A DNA stretch of 64,000 bases, from assembly GCF_000166775.1 (NCBI RefSeq), contig NC_014720.1:1668501-1732500 (forward strand), read 5' to 3'. The notes beneath the pieces are model-generated. The model was given only the letters and a program-made list of their open reading frames with translations, was not told the origin of the DNA and searched no databases. Below, piece by piece: positions 33,711-39,796 of this stretch. Every line of letters starts with the position of its first letter. Positions within the stretch are counted from its first letter, which is position 1. This DNA comes from Caldicellulosiruptor kronotskyensis 2002. GTDB taxonomy: Bacteria; Bacillota; Thermoanaerobacteria; Caldicellulosiruptorales; Caldicellulosiruptoraceae. Position numbers and translations under genes: made by a program.

Positions 33711-35018
33711 GAGTTAAAATAAAATTGTGTCCACTGTATAATGAGTATTGAAATAATCACAAAAGGGGGTTCACGATTATGGAGAAAAATGAAATTTTTG
33801 AAACCGCTAAAAATATGGCTATCGAACAAGTGCTAAATATGTATTGCTCCAAGGATGTTCCTACTCGCCCAGCTCTAAAACAGCTAAAAGTAAAACTTGC
33901 TCGATTGCTTTATGTTATCAGAAAGAACTGTTTACCTTGCTAAAAACGAAAACGACAAAGGCAATGGTTTTTACGATAGAAAACTTGCAACACCTGCTAT
34001 GTAGTTTGAAATCTCTGTCCCTCGTACACGCTCTTAGAATTTCCGACCTTCTATTCTCTTCTTTCCGCTACAAAAGAGTTGATAGCTTATCTACTTCCCT
34101 GCTTATGTCGCAAGTACCTCAATGGTTACTCTTGAGCGTTCTCTTGTCCAAACTCTTAAAAGCATGAATTTGCCTTATTCTGAAGACGAAATCGAAAAAA
34201 TCAAAAACGATCTAAAAAACGAGCTTCAACTCTTTAAACAAAGAGAACTTCGATGGCTGTACTTTTGCTCTCATCATTGACGGTTATTCAAAAGCGAAAT
34301 TAAAGATAACTCAAAAGCTAAACAAGCTACTTGCTATGTTGTCCTCGGTATTGATTTAGAAGGCAAAAAAGATATCTTCGGTATTCTGCCCTTTCTTCGG
34401 CAAAGAAAACAAAGCCGATTGGATGAGAGTCTTTGACGACTTAATTACAAGAGGTCTTAAAAAAGTCTTAATAGTCGTAAGCGATGATTTCCCAGGTATA
34501 ATCGATGCTGCTTGGCTCGCTTATCCCCTTGCCGACCATAAGCTTGTTCACCTTCAACGCAACGTTAGAAAACAATAGTCTTGAGATGATGCTTCTGTTT
34601 TCAACAAAGAACTTGATAAATTAAGAACTTCCTCTTCTGACTTCGATGAAGCAGTTTTAAAGTTTAAAGAACTTTGTAATCAATATTCCTCAAAATACCC
34701 CAGATTCTTAAAGGGTATTTGCGAAAAAGCCGAATTTTATCTTGCACATATGAAGTATCCTGAAGATTTAAGAAAGCATATCTATACTTACCTGTGCAGT
34801 AGAAAGTGTGAACAGTATAATTGAAAAATAAGAATAAACTCAGGCGGTTATTTTCAATCTGTAGAAATTTTAGAAATAAACATTTACTTACAAAGAGAAA
34901 ACTTGCGTCGTGGCAAGTGGAAAAACGGAATACCTATTCTTAAAAAATGCAGTTACAATATATTACAGCTCTACAATATGCGCTATTGATGTGGAAAGAC
35001 AAAATTCTTGACAAGTCT
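33711..35018 (+). mobile_element. Decayed IS256-family (mutator-type) insertion sequence
   Basis: About 1.3 kb carries a broken IS256-like transposase. The right end is set where cysK homology stops, near 35018. The left end is set near 33711, where GGGAGTTAAAATAAAATTG begins; this is loosely an inverted copy of the right end (AATTTTGTCTTTCCAC versus AAAATTGTGTCCAC). Boundaries are approximate and no target duplication could be found. The element interrupts cysK. Confidence 0.75.
33779..34989 (+). pseudogene. IS256-family transposase, multiply frameshifted
   Basis: Translation in three frames gives pieces typical of IS256 transposases: MEKNEIFETAKNMAIEQVL, then YLAKNENDKGNGFYDRKLATP, FEISVPRTRS, FGKENKADWMRVFDDLITRGLKKVLIVVSDDFPGI, ADHKLVHLQRNVRK and a C-terminal part. 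At least two in-frame stops and several shifts separate them, so the enzyme is not functional. It starts with ATG 33779 after AAAAGGGGG. Confidence 0.82.
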
Positions 35019-35582
35019 CCCCGTTATTGTTCCACCAGTTCCAACACCTGCAACAAATATATCTACCTGCCCGTCCGTGTCTCTCCATATCTCCTCTGCT
35101 GTTGTCCTTCTATGAATTTCAGGATTGGCTGAATTTTTGAATTGTTGTGGTATAAATGAATTTGGTATCTGTGCTGCTAATTCCTCTGCTTTTTTTACAG
35201 TTCCCTTCATTCCTTCAGCACCCGGAGTTAATACAAGCTCGGCTCCCAAAGCCTTTAAAAGTTTCCTTCTTTCAATACTCATTGTATCTGGCATTGTGAG
35301 TATTAACCTGTACCCTTTTGCAGCTGCCACAAAAGCTAATGCAATCCCAGTATTTCCACTCGTTGGTTCAATAATAACAGTGTCTTTATTTATCAACCCT
35401 TTTTCCTCAGCATCCCTGATCATTGCGTATCCAATTCTATCCTTTACACTTGATGCTAGATTAAAATATTCTAATTTTGCTATAATTCTTGCTTCTAAAT
35501 TATTTAACCTGTTATAGTTTGATAGCTCTAATAAAGGTGTATTACCAATGAGATCAGTAAGATTTTTTGCAATCCTTGACAT
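35019..35582 (-). pseudogene. cysK: Cysteine synthase, truncated by the IS element
   Basis: The N-terminal 188 or so residues of O-acetylserine sulfhydrylase remain: [33 protein letters not shown] with the PLP lysine, [33 protein letters not shown] and [12 protein letters not shown]. At that point the sequence switches to the IS end, adding about 11 foreign residues before a stop at 34983. Normal CysK has about 305 residues, and the lost part is not found on the other side of the element. A good AGGAGG precedes the ATG. The product is probably inactive. Confidence 0.9.
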
Positions 35583-36101: not shown

Positions 36102-36944
36102 TTATCCTCTGCCCAAAATTCTGTTATACCTTCGAATTATCATGTTTGCAAACATATTTATTATAAACACAATTACAATAAGCAATGTTGCAGTAGCATA
36201 TGAATTTAATTTTGAAATTCCTTCTGAAGAAAGAATATAAAGATGGACGGACATGGTTCTCGTTGGACTGAATATGCTTGTGGGGAAATTAAGTGAACTT
36301 CCAGCTGTTAAAAGCACTGCAGCAGTCTCACCTATTGCCCTTCCAACTCCCAAGATAACTCCTGTCAATATCCCGGGCATTGCAGGTGGGATTACAACCT
36401 TAGCTATTGTCTGCCACTTTGTCGCACCAAGTGCAAGGCTCCCTTCCCTAAAAGACATCGGAACAGTTTTTATAGCCTCTTCTGAAGTTCGTATAATGGT
36501 AGGCAGAATCATTATCGAAAGCGTAAGTGCACCTGATAAAATGGACCATCTAAATCCAAGTGCAATTACAAAAAATGCAAATCCGAAAAGCCCATAAATT
36601 ATAGAAGGTATTCCTGCCAATGTTTCTGTGCCAAATCTTATAAGCTCAACAGCTTTTCCTTTCTTTGCATATTCAGTCAAATAGATTGCCGCTAATACCC
36701 CTACAGGCGAAGCAATTATGACTGCAAGCAAGGTTACATACAAAGTTCCGACAATAACAGGGAATATTCCTCCGCTTTTGCCCATCTCTTCAGGGTACTG
36801 TAGAATAAAGCTTAAACTTATACCTTTTAGCCCATTAGAAATAATGTGAAATACTATAACAATTAATATTATCATGGTAATTAACGTAAAAAGTCCAATT
36901 ATAGAAAATACAATGCCCTGTACAACTTTATTCTTTCTTATCAT
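36102..36944 (-). CDS. pstA: Phosphate ABC transporter permease PstA
   Basis: PstA is one of the two membrane subunits of the high-affinity phosphate importer. The 280-residue protein has six hydrophobic segments and the coupling loop REGSLALGATKWQTIAKVVIPPAMPGILTGVILGVGRAIGETAAVL. It overlaps pstC by four bases. The ATPase gene pstB, which usually follows, is not present in the next 6 kb. Confidence 0.95.
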   Translation of the reverse strand: MIRKNKVVQGIVFSIIGLFTLITMIILIVIVFHIISNGLKGISLSFILQYPEEMGKSGGIFPVIVGTLYVTLLAVIIASPVGVLAAIYLTEYAKKGKAVELIRFGTETLAGIPSIIYGLFGFAFFVIALGFRWSILSGALTLSIMILPTIIRTSEEAIKTVPMSFREGSLALGATKWQTIAKVVIPPAMPGILTGVILGVGRAIGETAAVLLTAGSSLNFPTSIFSPTRTMSVHLYILSSEGISKLNSYATATLLIVIVFIINMFANMIIRRYNRILGRG

Positions 36945-37795
36945 TTTTCTTCACCAACTTTTCTTGCAATTACATTTGCAATGGTGTTTAAAATCATAAT
37001 AATTACAAAAAGAACAATTCCAGTTGCAAAAAGCGCCTGAGCATGTTTACCAGACGCATACCCCATCTCAATTGCTATATTTCCTGTCAAGGTCCTTACC
37101 TGATCCAAAATACTATTCGGTATTTTTGGACTATTGCCTGCTACCATAATAACAGCCATGGTCTCGCCAATTGCCCTTCCCATACCAAGAATTATTGAAG
37201 CAATGATTCCAGACTTTGCAGCAGGCAAAATAACCCCCTTAATTGTTTGCCAGTGAGTTGCACCAAGGGCTAAAGACCCTTCTTTATACTCTCTTGGCAC
37301 AGACCTTATTGATACTTCTGAGATGTTAATAATTGTTGGCAAAATCATAATTCCCAAAATTATAGAAGACGCCAAAATAGAAAAACCAGACCCACCTAAA
37401 TATTTCCTTATCAAGGGAACCACAACAACAAGACCATAAAAACCATATATCACAGAGGGGATTCCTGCCAACAGCTCAACAAATGGTCTTATAAGCCTTG
37501 ATATTTTTTCATTTACAAGTTCACCCAAAAATATTGCTGTTGCAATTCCAATTGGTACACCTATAATAATTGCTCCCAAAGTAACATAAATCGAACCCAA
37601 AATCATCGGGAATATCCCAAATTTGCCACTTAAAGGTGCCCATTTTTTACCCAAAATAAAGTTCCAAAGCCCATATTCTTTTATGATTGCAAAACCTTCT
37701 TTAAAGATAAAAATGGTGATAAGCAGTACAGAAACTACTGAAATAGCAGCAGCTAAAAACAAAATCATTTCTATTGCACTTTTCTTCTTAGGCAT
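36941..37795 (-). CDS. pstC: Phosphate ABC transporter permease PstC
   Basis: PstC is the partner permease. The 284-residue sequence has six membrane segments and the EAA loop KEGSLALGATHWQTIKGVILPAAKSGIIASIILGMGRAIGETMAV. It follows pstS and overlaps pstA, in the usual pstSCA order. Identification is secure. Confidence 0.95.
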   Translation of the reverse strand: MPKKKSAIEMILFLAAAISVVSVLLITIFIFKEGFAIIKEYGLWNFILGKKWAPLSGKFGIFPMILGSIYVTLGAIIIGVPIGIATAIFLGELVNEKISRLIRPFVELLAGIPSVIYGFYGLVVVVPLIRKYLGGSGFSILASSIILGIMILPTIINISEVSIRSVPREYKEGSLALGATHWQTIKGVILPAAKSGIIASIILGMGRAIGETMAVIMVAGNSPKIPNSILDQVRTLTGNIAIEMGYASGKHAQALFATGIVLFVIIMILNTIANVIARKVGEEK

Positions 37796-37826: not shown

Positions 37827-38645
37827 CTACTTCACTTTGATGTAATGGTGCTTTTCTACAATGGCCTGTCCTTCTTCGCTTAAAGTAAAATCAATAAATT
37901 CTTTTACAAGACCTTTTGGTTCATCCTTAGTCAAAAACAGAAAAGGTCTCTGAAGTTTATACTTGCCATTTTTTACATTAGCATCTGTAGGTTCCACTCC
38001 TTCTATTTTTACAGCTTTAACACTTGAATCCAGCACACCTATTGAGATATATCCTATTGCATTAGGGTCTTGCGAAACGGACTGTTTCACAGCACCTTGT
38101 GATGGCTGAACAACTGCAGAATCAGAAATTGAACTACCACCCATCACAAGTTCTTCAAATGCACCACGTGTTCCAGACCCCTCTTCTCGTGTTACAACAA
38201 CAATCTGCGCATCTTTGCCACCAACATCTTTCCAACTTTTTATTTTGCCTGTATATATATCTTTTATCTGTTTTATTGTAAGATTTTCAATAGGATTTGA
38301 AGGATGCACAACAATTGCAATTCCATCAACTGCTATCTTGTATTCATGAAGACCTTTTTCTTCTGGTTTTAGTTCTCTCGAAGATGTGCCAATATCAGCA
38401 ACACCGTCTCTGGCTGATTTTATCCCAACACCTGAACCTCCGCCTTGGACCTCAATTTTGGTGTCTGGGTGTTTTTCCATAAACGCCTTTGCTAAATCAT
38501 CTGCCAATGGCTGAACAGAAGTTGAACCCGCAACTGTAATCGAATTTTTAGATTTCTGAGCTTCATTTCCTACATTTTTGCATCCAAAAAGAAGTAAACT
38601 CAAAAAAGATAATACAACTACTAAAACAAAAGATTTTTTGTACAT
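37827..38645 (-). CDS. pstS: Phosphate-binding lipoprotein PstS
   Basis: PstS captures phosphate outside the membrane. The 272-residue protein has a lipoprotein signal with lipobox LLFGC near residue 22. Mature motifs are ITVAGSTSVQPLADDLAKAF, VQGGGSGVGIKSA, IGTSSRELKPEE and TREEGSGTRGAFEELV, which form the phosphate pocket. The promoter region carries four PHO-box-like repeats. It is the first gene of pstSCA. Confidence 0.95.
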   Translation of the reverse strand: MYKKSFVLVVVLSFLSLLLFGCKNVGNEAQKSKNSITVAGSTSVQPLADDLAKAFMEKHPDTKIEVQGGGSGVGIKSARDGVADIGTSSRELKPEEKGLHEYKIAVDGIAIVVHPSNPIENLTIKQIKDIYTGKIKSWKDVGGKDAQIVVVTREEGSGTRGAFEELVMGGSSISDSAVVQPSQGAVKQSVSQDPNAIGYISIGVLDSSVKAVKIEGVEPTDANVKNGKYKLQRPFLFLTKDEPKGLVKEFIDFTLSEEGQAIVEKHHYIKVK

Positions 38646-38725
38646 TTATTCCACTCCCCATTTTAATTTTTTACATATTATTTTTACCCTTATGTTTCTG
38701 ATATATTACGATTTTACACAACTAA

Positions 38726-38765
38726 TGTTAAATCAAATTAAAATGAATGTTAAATCTATGTTAAA
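38726..38765 (-). promoter_or_regulatory. PHO box: four 7-bp repeats with 11-bp spacing upstream of pstS
   Basis: Read on the minus strand, TTTAACA (38759-38765), TTTAACA (38748-38754), TTTTAAT (38737-38743) and TTTAACA (38726-38732) are spaced exactly 11 bp, one helical turn. This is the arrangement of Gram-positive PhoP binding sites (TTAACA-type direct repeats). They lie 80-120 bases before the pstS ATG. Control by a PhoP-like regulator under phosphate starvation is inferred; no phoP gene is in the window. Confidence 0.85.
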
Positions 38766-38770
38766 TAACC

Positions 38771-39796
38771 TTAAAGTCGGCTAATATCAACTACAGTTTC
38801 ATTAGATTCTGTAATCATCCTTATCTTATCAACCTCTTCATTGCTACATAACACTTCAATTTCAGCATGAGAAAAAAGCTGTTTAAACCTTTTGATATTA
38901 CTTTTTTTCTGTCCTACAAATTTTGAGTAGTTCTTAGGATGTACTATAAACAATACTTTAGTAAACTTTTGGTCTTGTAATCTTTCTACTACCTTTCTGA
39001 ATATTATCTCTGAGTCTACAAGCTCACCAAACGAAGGATGAAAAGGTCCTGCTAAAACTTTTGCATTGTAATTTATCTCTTCTGTTGGCTGAAGCCCAAC
39101 TCTAATAACATTTACGCCCTTTTCTATAAATATGGATTTTATCTGGCTACATCTTTCTACTGTCTCATTTAAAGAAAGAGGCTCATATTCTCCTTTTTGG
39201 TACATCTTTGCAAGATAAGTACCCTCTATGACAAGAGTTGGATAAATCCTTGCAATGTCAGGCGAAAAACTGGTCAATATCTTTGCTGTTTCAATATCCA
39301 TCTCAGGTGTTGATTTTGGAAGCCCTACCATAACCTGAACCCCGAGTAAAAACCCAAACTTTTTTATCATTTCCATTGCATTTTTGCTATGCTGAGCAGT
39401 GTGTCCTCTTGCGCACGCATTTAAAACATGGTCAAACATACTTTGGATTCCAAGTTCTATTGTTCTCACATTGTAAAATTTTAATAATATTAATCTCTCC
39501 TCATCAATACAGTCCGGTCTTGTGGAAATTCGAATACTCTTTATTCTCTCGAAACTATTAGCAAGTTCAAGCAATTTTTTTTGAAAATCTATATCGATGG
39601 CAGTAAAATTGCCACCATAATATGCAAGTTCAACCTCCTCATCTAAATTAATTTTCAGTCCTTGTTCAATCTGCCTTTTTATCCTATCCAAGCTTACCTC
39701 TTCTTTTTCTCCAGATATTGTTTTTTGATTGCAAAATATACAGTTAAAAGGACAGGCATACTGGGGAATAAATATGGGTAAAATCCTATGTTTCAC
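38771..39796 (-). CDS. Radical SAM protein, Elp3-like
   Basis: The N-terminus has IPQYACPFNCIFCNQ, the C-x3-C-x2-C that binds a radical-SAM 4Fe-4S cluster; ELAYYGGNFTAID is the GGE-like SAM motif. The rest resembles the Elp3-type oxidoreductase family (STRPDCIDEERLILL, TIELGIQSMFDHVLNA). There is no acetyltransferase domain. It overlaps rnc by four bases, a pairing conserved in Firmicutes. The substrate is unknown. Confidence 0.87.
   Translation of the reverse strand: MKHRILPIFIPQYACPFNCIFCNQKTISGEKEEVSLDRIKRQIEQGLKINLDEEVELAYYGGNFTAIDIDFQKKLLELANSFERIKSIRISTRPDCIDEERLILLKFYNVRTIELGIQSMFDHVLNACARGHTAQHSKNAMEMIKKFGFLLGVQVMVGLPKSTPEMDIETAKILTSFSPDIARIYPTLVIEGTYLAKMYQKGEYEPLSLNETVERCSQIKSIFIEKGVNVIRVGLQPTEEINYNAKVLAGPFHPSFGELVDSEIIFRKVVERLQDQKFTKVLFIVHPKNYSKFVGQKKSNIKRFKQLFSHAEIEVLCSNEEVDKIRMITESNETVVDISRL

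Follow-up and report, generated by a model that had tools for sequence, protein, structure and literature searches.

In the stretch of Caldicellulosiruptor kronotskyensis 2002 DNA analysed here (64,000 nucleotides, referred to below as the window), the phosphate transporter genes pstSCA are preceded by four direct repeats in 11-bp register, which very probably form a Bacillus-type PhoP box placing the pstSCA promoter under phosphate-starvation control. The first-pass annotation had proposed a PHO box at this place, and the sequence evidence supports that reading through conservation among relatives, a -10 element at a fixed distance and the recurrence of the same arrangement before other phosphate genes. 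As a regulatory site the array is almost certainly a PhoP (Pho) box of the Bacillus type, well conserved and ordinary of its kind; the less ordinary features around it are a transporter in two separate parts linked by boxes of one type, a conserved array of eight repeats and a Pho-linked sensor that resembles methyl-accepting chemotaxis proteins (MCP-like). No paper on the Pho regulon of Caldicellulosiruptor was found in the open-licence literature, which, being confined to papers of that kind, is weak evidence of absence, and the present analysis gives an outline of this regulon for a group in which we found no dedicated study. Coordinates of the features are collected in Table 1.

Table 1. 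Features of the pstS region (window positions) and of related loci (genome positions)
Feature	Position	Strand	Basis
Pho half-site 1 (distal), TTTAACA	38759..38765	-	direct read; alignment columns 1-7
Pho half-site 2, TTTAACA	38748..38754	-	direct read and alignment
Pho half-site 3 (weak), TTTTAAT	38737..38743	-	direct read and alignment
Pho half-site 4 (promoter-proximal), TTTAACA	38726..38732	-	direct read and alignment
-10 element TAAAAT	38711..38716	-	9 bp past half-site 4; TANNNT at spacing 9 in 13/13 family and 16/16 class pstS arrays
pstS, phosphate-binding lipoprotein	37827..38645	-	TIGR02136, E 2.2e-84, above curated cut-off
pstC, permease	36941..37795	-	TIGR02138, E 8e-92, above curated cut-off
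pstA, permease; frame overlaps pstC by 4 bp	36102..36944	-	TIGR00974, E 2.6e-89, above curated cut-off
Radical-SAM gene upstream of pstS, co-directional	38771-39796	-	
Response regulator called PhoP	genome 1399182-1399880 (L023 4183-4881)		phosphate-gene neighbourhood
Eight-repeat array before pstS2-phoA	genome 2828546-2828629 (L024 10547-10630)		
Four-repeat array and -10 before MCP-like sensor	genome 2821190-2821229 (L024 3191-3230)	-	

Array and promoter ahead of pstS

Read directly, positions 38765-38726 of the minus strand hold TTTAACA, TTTAACA, TTTTAAT and TTTAACA at steps of 11, 11 and 11 bp, and the letters, coordinates and exact spacing first described are all confirmed; the strand, the fixed 9-bp distance to the -10 and the absence from the operon of pstB, which has a box of its own elsewhere, are additions to that description. 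Three of the four hexamers are TTAACA and the third is TTTAAT, with spacers of exactly 5 bp, which fits the Firmicutes Pho-box consensus TT(A/T/C)ACA with a spacer of 5 ± 2 bp. The array lies in an intergenic gap of 125 bp, 6 bp past the stop codon of the upstream gene and 80 bp short of the pstS ATG (38645), and it matches a reference of four TTTAACA at 11-bp steps in 25 of 28 positions. The best non-overlapping array elsewhere in the window reaches 19/28, and among the 300-bp regions upstream of the 55 window ORFs of at least 150 aa only that of pstS scores above 18.

The box is retained well beyond the host genome. PstS was found in 30 of the 31 genomes, and an array of at least 23/28 stands upstream of the best pstS in 29 of these 30, that is, in all 13 of the family (12 of the host genus, host included, and one of another genus) and in 16/17 from the rest of the class; the sole exception is the best PstS of G021, whose second PstS falls outside the count. 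Even the weak third repeat persists, 12/12 genomes of the genus having TTTTAA(T/A/G) there. When 36 family promoters were aligned (13 pstS, 10 pstB and 13 pstS2), fourteen columns proved invariant, among them the T, the A and the final T of the -10 element. Twenty-nine named Firmicutes-type pstS loci, chosen among 80 listed, gave lower array scores (16-24), and 16 of them carried TANNNT 9 bp past the best array, compared with 1/17 other pstS loci.

A TANNNT element stands exactly 9 bp past the last repeat in all 29 pstS arrays (13 of the family and 16 from the rest of the class). Among spacings of 0-21 bp, only 9 bp covers the whole of either group, the runners-up being 1 bp (13/16, in the class only) and 17 bp (8/13, in the family only). 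A classical promoter, in which the TTAACA of the last repeat would serve as -35 and TAATAT, 17 bp away, as -10, also fits the window; this candidate was rejected and the -10 at 9 bp preferred, because TANNNT at the classical spacing occurs in 8/13 family arrays and in none of the 16 from the class. At 16-18 bp from TAAAAT, the pstS promoter offers, as read by eye, at most two of six bases of a TTGACA -35. Repeats and a -10 without a recognisable -35 are the layout expected if PhoP dimers replace the -35, the position of the PhoP box relative to the promoter in Bacillus subtilis being our basis of comparison. This architecture of four 11-bp repeats, a 9-bp gap and a -10 is shared by 29 pstS promoters of the class and offers a test object for the replacement of the -35 by PhoP.

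The separated pstB and the adjoining regulator pair

The three transporter genes of the window were identified with curated NCBIfam cut-offs, and they make up the whole operon: pstB is absent from it, and past pstA the same strand continues with an 88-aa protein, which has no NCBIfam match and is presumably SpoVS-like, and a cysteine synthase-like fragment. The latter frame (34983-35582, 199 aa) matches the CysK model (298 positions) over positions 2-179 only and looks truncated or frameshifted.

The complete genome (2,843,785 bases, one contig), which encodes three large GH48 proteins and whose gene content suits Caldicellulosiruptor, has a single locus that exceeds the PstB cut-off; it occupies 1403479-1404216 and lies 302 kb away from pstS. 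This pstB has its own -10 and its own box, TTTAACA TTTAACA TTAAACA TTTAATG, at 1403371-1403410, and it is followed by phoU. Divergent from it are genes for a DUF47 (PhoU_div) protein and a PiT-family transporter, the box lying between DUF47 and pstB, and a response regulator and a histidine kinase adjoin the DUF47 and PiT-family genes. In genomes G000-G008 every pstB that passes the E limit is likewise far from pstS (the nearest at about 295 kb), and at the phoPR locus the array before pstB scores 25 in 8/8 family genomes scored. Intact operons were seen in the four outgroup genomes (G014-G017), where pstB lies 2-4 kb from pstS and no box precedes it in any of the four (scores 15-16). Further pstB-phoU pairs occur elsewhere in G002 and G005 (L106 and L107), behind arrays scoring 22 and 24, and in G010 (L241), behind a Pho array of its own; G010 also has a second array that is nearly a duplicate. 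On account of these boxes before separate copies, it can be stated that a pstB apart from pstSCA stands, in the cases seen, behind a Pho-type promoter. The split transporter illustrates how regulation can hold the parts of an operon together once they are separated. Some copies of these genes are irregular: at the phoPR locus of G005 (L273 8907-9676) pstB is divided between two frames, giving two tblastn pieces, the other copy in that genome being intact; G009 (L251) has a truncated second pstB-phoU copy; and in the phoPR-type cluster of G010 it is pit that reads in two frames.

The first-pass annotation had named the lack of a PhoP-PhoR pair as evidence that would speak against it. A regulator-kinase pair is present beside pit-DUF47 and pstB-phoU, although neither protein attains the curated cut-off of any named phosphate model: with PhoB the regulator obtains 233.1 bits where 296.2 are required, with YycF 244.9 where 340 are required, and the kinase obtains 387.9 bits with PnpS, whose cut-off is 400. 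It is for this reason that our naming of the pair as PhoP-PhoR type rests on the gene neighbourhood (pit-DUF47 and pstB-phoU). A tblastn search in stretches of G001, G005, G009, G010, G011 and G012 recovered part or all of the cluster of regulator and kinase, pit, DUF47, pstB and phoU in 6/6 of these relatives.

A comparable connection has been described in Staphylococcus aureus, where, in the part of the source drawn on here, PhoPR works in one network with PhoU and PitR, a PhoU-like regulator of Pit (PMC13170248). The adjacency of DUF47 and the PiT-family transporter resembles that network and suggests that the DUF47 protein may be the counterpart of PitR; the arrangement differs from that of S. 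aureus in that the genes are clustered here and a Pho box separates DUF47 from pstB.

Which regulator reads the array

A chance origin of the repeats in an AT-rich intergenic stretch, or a role unconnected with any regulator, would find some footing in the base composition of the region and in the 25 occurrences of TTTAACA on the two strands of the window, but the score of 25 was never attained by shuffled sequence. Dinucleotide shuffles of the whole window on both strands (n = 300) gave maxima of 18-23, shuffles of the 125-bp gap (n = 20,000) a maximum of 23, and with any step of 9-13 bp allowed, 25 was reached in 0/5,000 shuffles. The earlier judgement that such phasing is unlikely by chance therefore holds, and since register and fixed -10 are kept in 29 promoters, conservation has already refuted the chance reading, to which we give practically no weight.

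The array could be a box for WalR (YycF), an essential cell-wall regulator and close paralogue of PhoP, in which case pstSCA would be tied to the state of the cell wall. A WalRK-like pair is encoded (L026; WalR 339.6 bits against a cut-off of 340), and the B. subtilis WalR consensus, quoted from an excerpt as TGTWAH-N5-TGTWAH (PMC9210968), shares with the array its 11-bp period of direct repeats, a related half-site and a paralogous regulator. Moreover, Pho-like and WalR-type repeats are intermixed at 86475-86519 (L026 6476-6520), a site with TATAAT 9 bp downstream that lies downstream of walK, between it and the gene of an unknown secreted-looking protein. The G at the second base of the WalR half-site, however, is absent from the pstS array (T in 4/4), none of the 144 half-sites in the alignment of 36 promoters has it, and the targets of the arrays are phosphate genes, contrary to a WalR reading, which we therefore consider improbable. 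Slightly less probable still is that another OmpR-family regulator, answering to a phosphate-linked or an unrelated signal, reads the pstS array: the genome encodes six OmpR-type DNA-binding domains, of which two were examined, but of these two only the regulator encoded next to pstB-phoU and pit-DUF47 is surrounded by phosphate genes, and its cluster recurs, in part or in full, in each of the six relatives checked.

PhoP thus remains the preferred regulator of the array, and its binding, the activation that would follow and the low-phosphate signal may be pictured as follows. When phosphate is scarce, PhoR would phosphorylate PhoP, two dimers of which would bind head-to-tail along a single helical face. 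They would occupy the four half-sites, which span about -61 to -22 as counted from the -10 spacing, with a predicted transcript start near 38704; bound PhoP would then bring RNA polymerase to a promoter with a good -10 and no recognisable -35. Because the same box and -10 precede pstB-phoU, the two parts of the transporter, 302 kb apart, would be made together, and the same regulon would take in the scavenging genes pstS2-phoA, ugp-like, glpQ, phosphoesterase and 5'-nucleotidase.

The PhoB half-site of Escherichia coli, CTGTCAT, differs in sequence from the half-sites found here, which come in arrays of four to eight repeats. What the two systems have in common is the 11-bp unit and, by prediction for our array, tandem head-to-tail binding of an OmpR-family protein, the E. 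coli box being described in the consulted part of one report as two 11-nt direct repeat units (PMC4415409). The nearer likeness is to the PhoP box of B. subtilis, given in an extract of PMC3036859 as direct repeats of TT(A/T/C)ACA with a spacer of 5 ± 2 bp: TTAACA, the 5-bp spacer, four repeats, the place before pst genes and the position just ahead of the -10 all agree. Unlike that box, the array described here has a degenerate third half-site (TTTTAAT) that is kept so and spacers that are all exactly 5 bp, and the gene order also differs, with pstB elsewhere.

Other Pho-type promoters in the genome

The genome scan for further 11-bp TTTAACA arrays that had been suggested with the first description recovered a coherent set of phosphate genes. 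A 56-column box model (R1), built in part from promoters that it then recovers, gave eight matches in its own genome at E<0.01: those of pstS, pstB, pstS2 (two), a metallophosphoesterase (E 1e-4) and a ugp-like operon (E 0.0025), together with the site at 86475 and another at 275027, neither of which precedes an evident phosphate gene. Divergent arrays lie between the ugp-like transporter genes and glpQ, and others before the metallophosphoesterase and a 5'-nucleotidase; the 5'-nucleotidase site is weak (R1 E 0.63) and that of glpQ is absent from the R1 list at E<=1. Within the ugp-like operon, transposase-like frames stand between the binding-protein and permease genes (L025 2981-4276).

The longest array precedes pstS2, which in this genome is followed by the alkaline phosphatase gene phoA: eight repeats at 11 bp with a -10 at 9 bp, found in 13/13 family genomes with 46-49 of 56 matches. 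The occurrence of conserved four- and eight-repeat arrays in one genome allows the number of repeats to be tested against the threshold or order of induction. Eight kilobases before pstS2 lies the gene of the MCP-like transmembrane sensor, whose 11/11 orthologues have arrays scoring 23-25 and, 9 bp past them, a -10 reading TAAAAT or TACAAT, the observed score being attained in none of 2,000 shuffles for each of the 11; at the E limit used, no orthologue was found in the family genomes G006 and G012. The protein has a HAMP domain and an MCP signalling domain of 31.6 bits, below the Pfam cut-off of 34.6, for which reason its MCP-like identity is tentative. The genome has 12 CheW-domain matches and, therefore, a chemotaxis system.

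A joint reading of these observations can be offered, which we put forward as a speculation more doubtful than not. In this family of anaerobes the split Pst system would be held together only by its matching boxes, and array length would order the response, the eight repeats of pstS2-phoA taking four PhoP dimers and responding more sharply or later than a four-repeat promoter. PhoP would also switch on the MCP-like sensor, which may report phosphate to chemotaxis, perhaps through PstS in the manner of CtpL of Pseudomonas aeruginosa, a protein which, in the portion of the paper used here, reports phosphate to chemotaxis through PstS (PMC4926252).

Several sites were set aside in the course of the scan. 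A pattern of two repeats and a -10 gave 91 hits in the genome and 132 in the reversed control, that is, no enrichment, and because the control outscored the genome the two-repeat scan was dropped and only longer arrays were regarded as informative. One of its hits, 1771195-1771238 (L028), enters the end of hypF on the antisense strand and was not counted as a Pho promoter; partial R1 matches resembling it (model positions 5-56) occur, perhaps at hypF, in four relatives at E 0.0095-0.025. The sites at 2696141 and 1060017 (the pattern with two and three mismatches) were left out for want of a -10 at 9 bp, as were 2496835 and 1540959, the latter of which lies inside a response-regulator ORF.

Two arrays stand before genes of another kind. 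The Pho-like array at 275027-275078 (L239 3028-3079; R1 E 0.0019) is followed, as read by eye, by three short Gly/Cys-containing peptides, a radical-SAM/SPASM protein and a CPBP-type protease, possibly a RiPP cluster. Copies of its promoter block occur in G007, G008 and G011, and the block stops at a ACTGTACACC-like sequence, which looks like the end of a mobile element; the idea that the block is a Pho-controlled RNA was discarded, as it has no Rfam match and the alignment of the four copies holds only to that end. In G006, a strong Pho array (L252 2966-3020; E 7e-6) precedes genes for a BtrH_N/DUF4872 protein and an ABC exporter.
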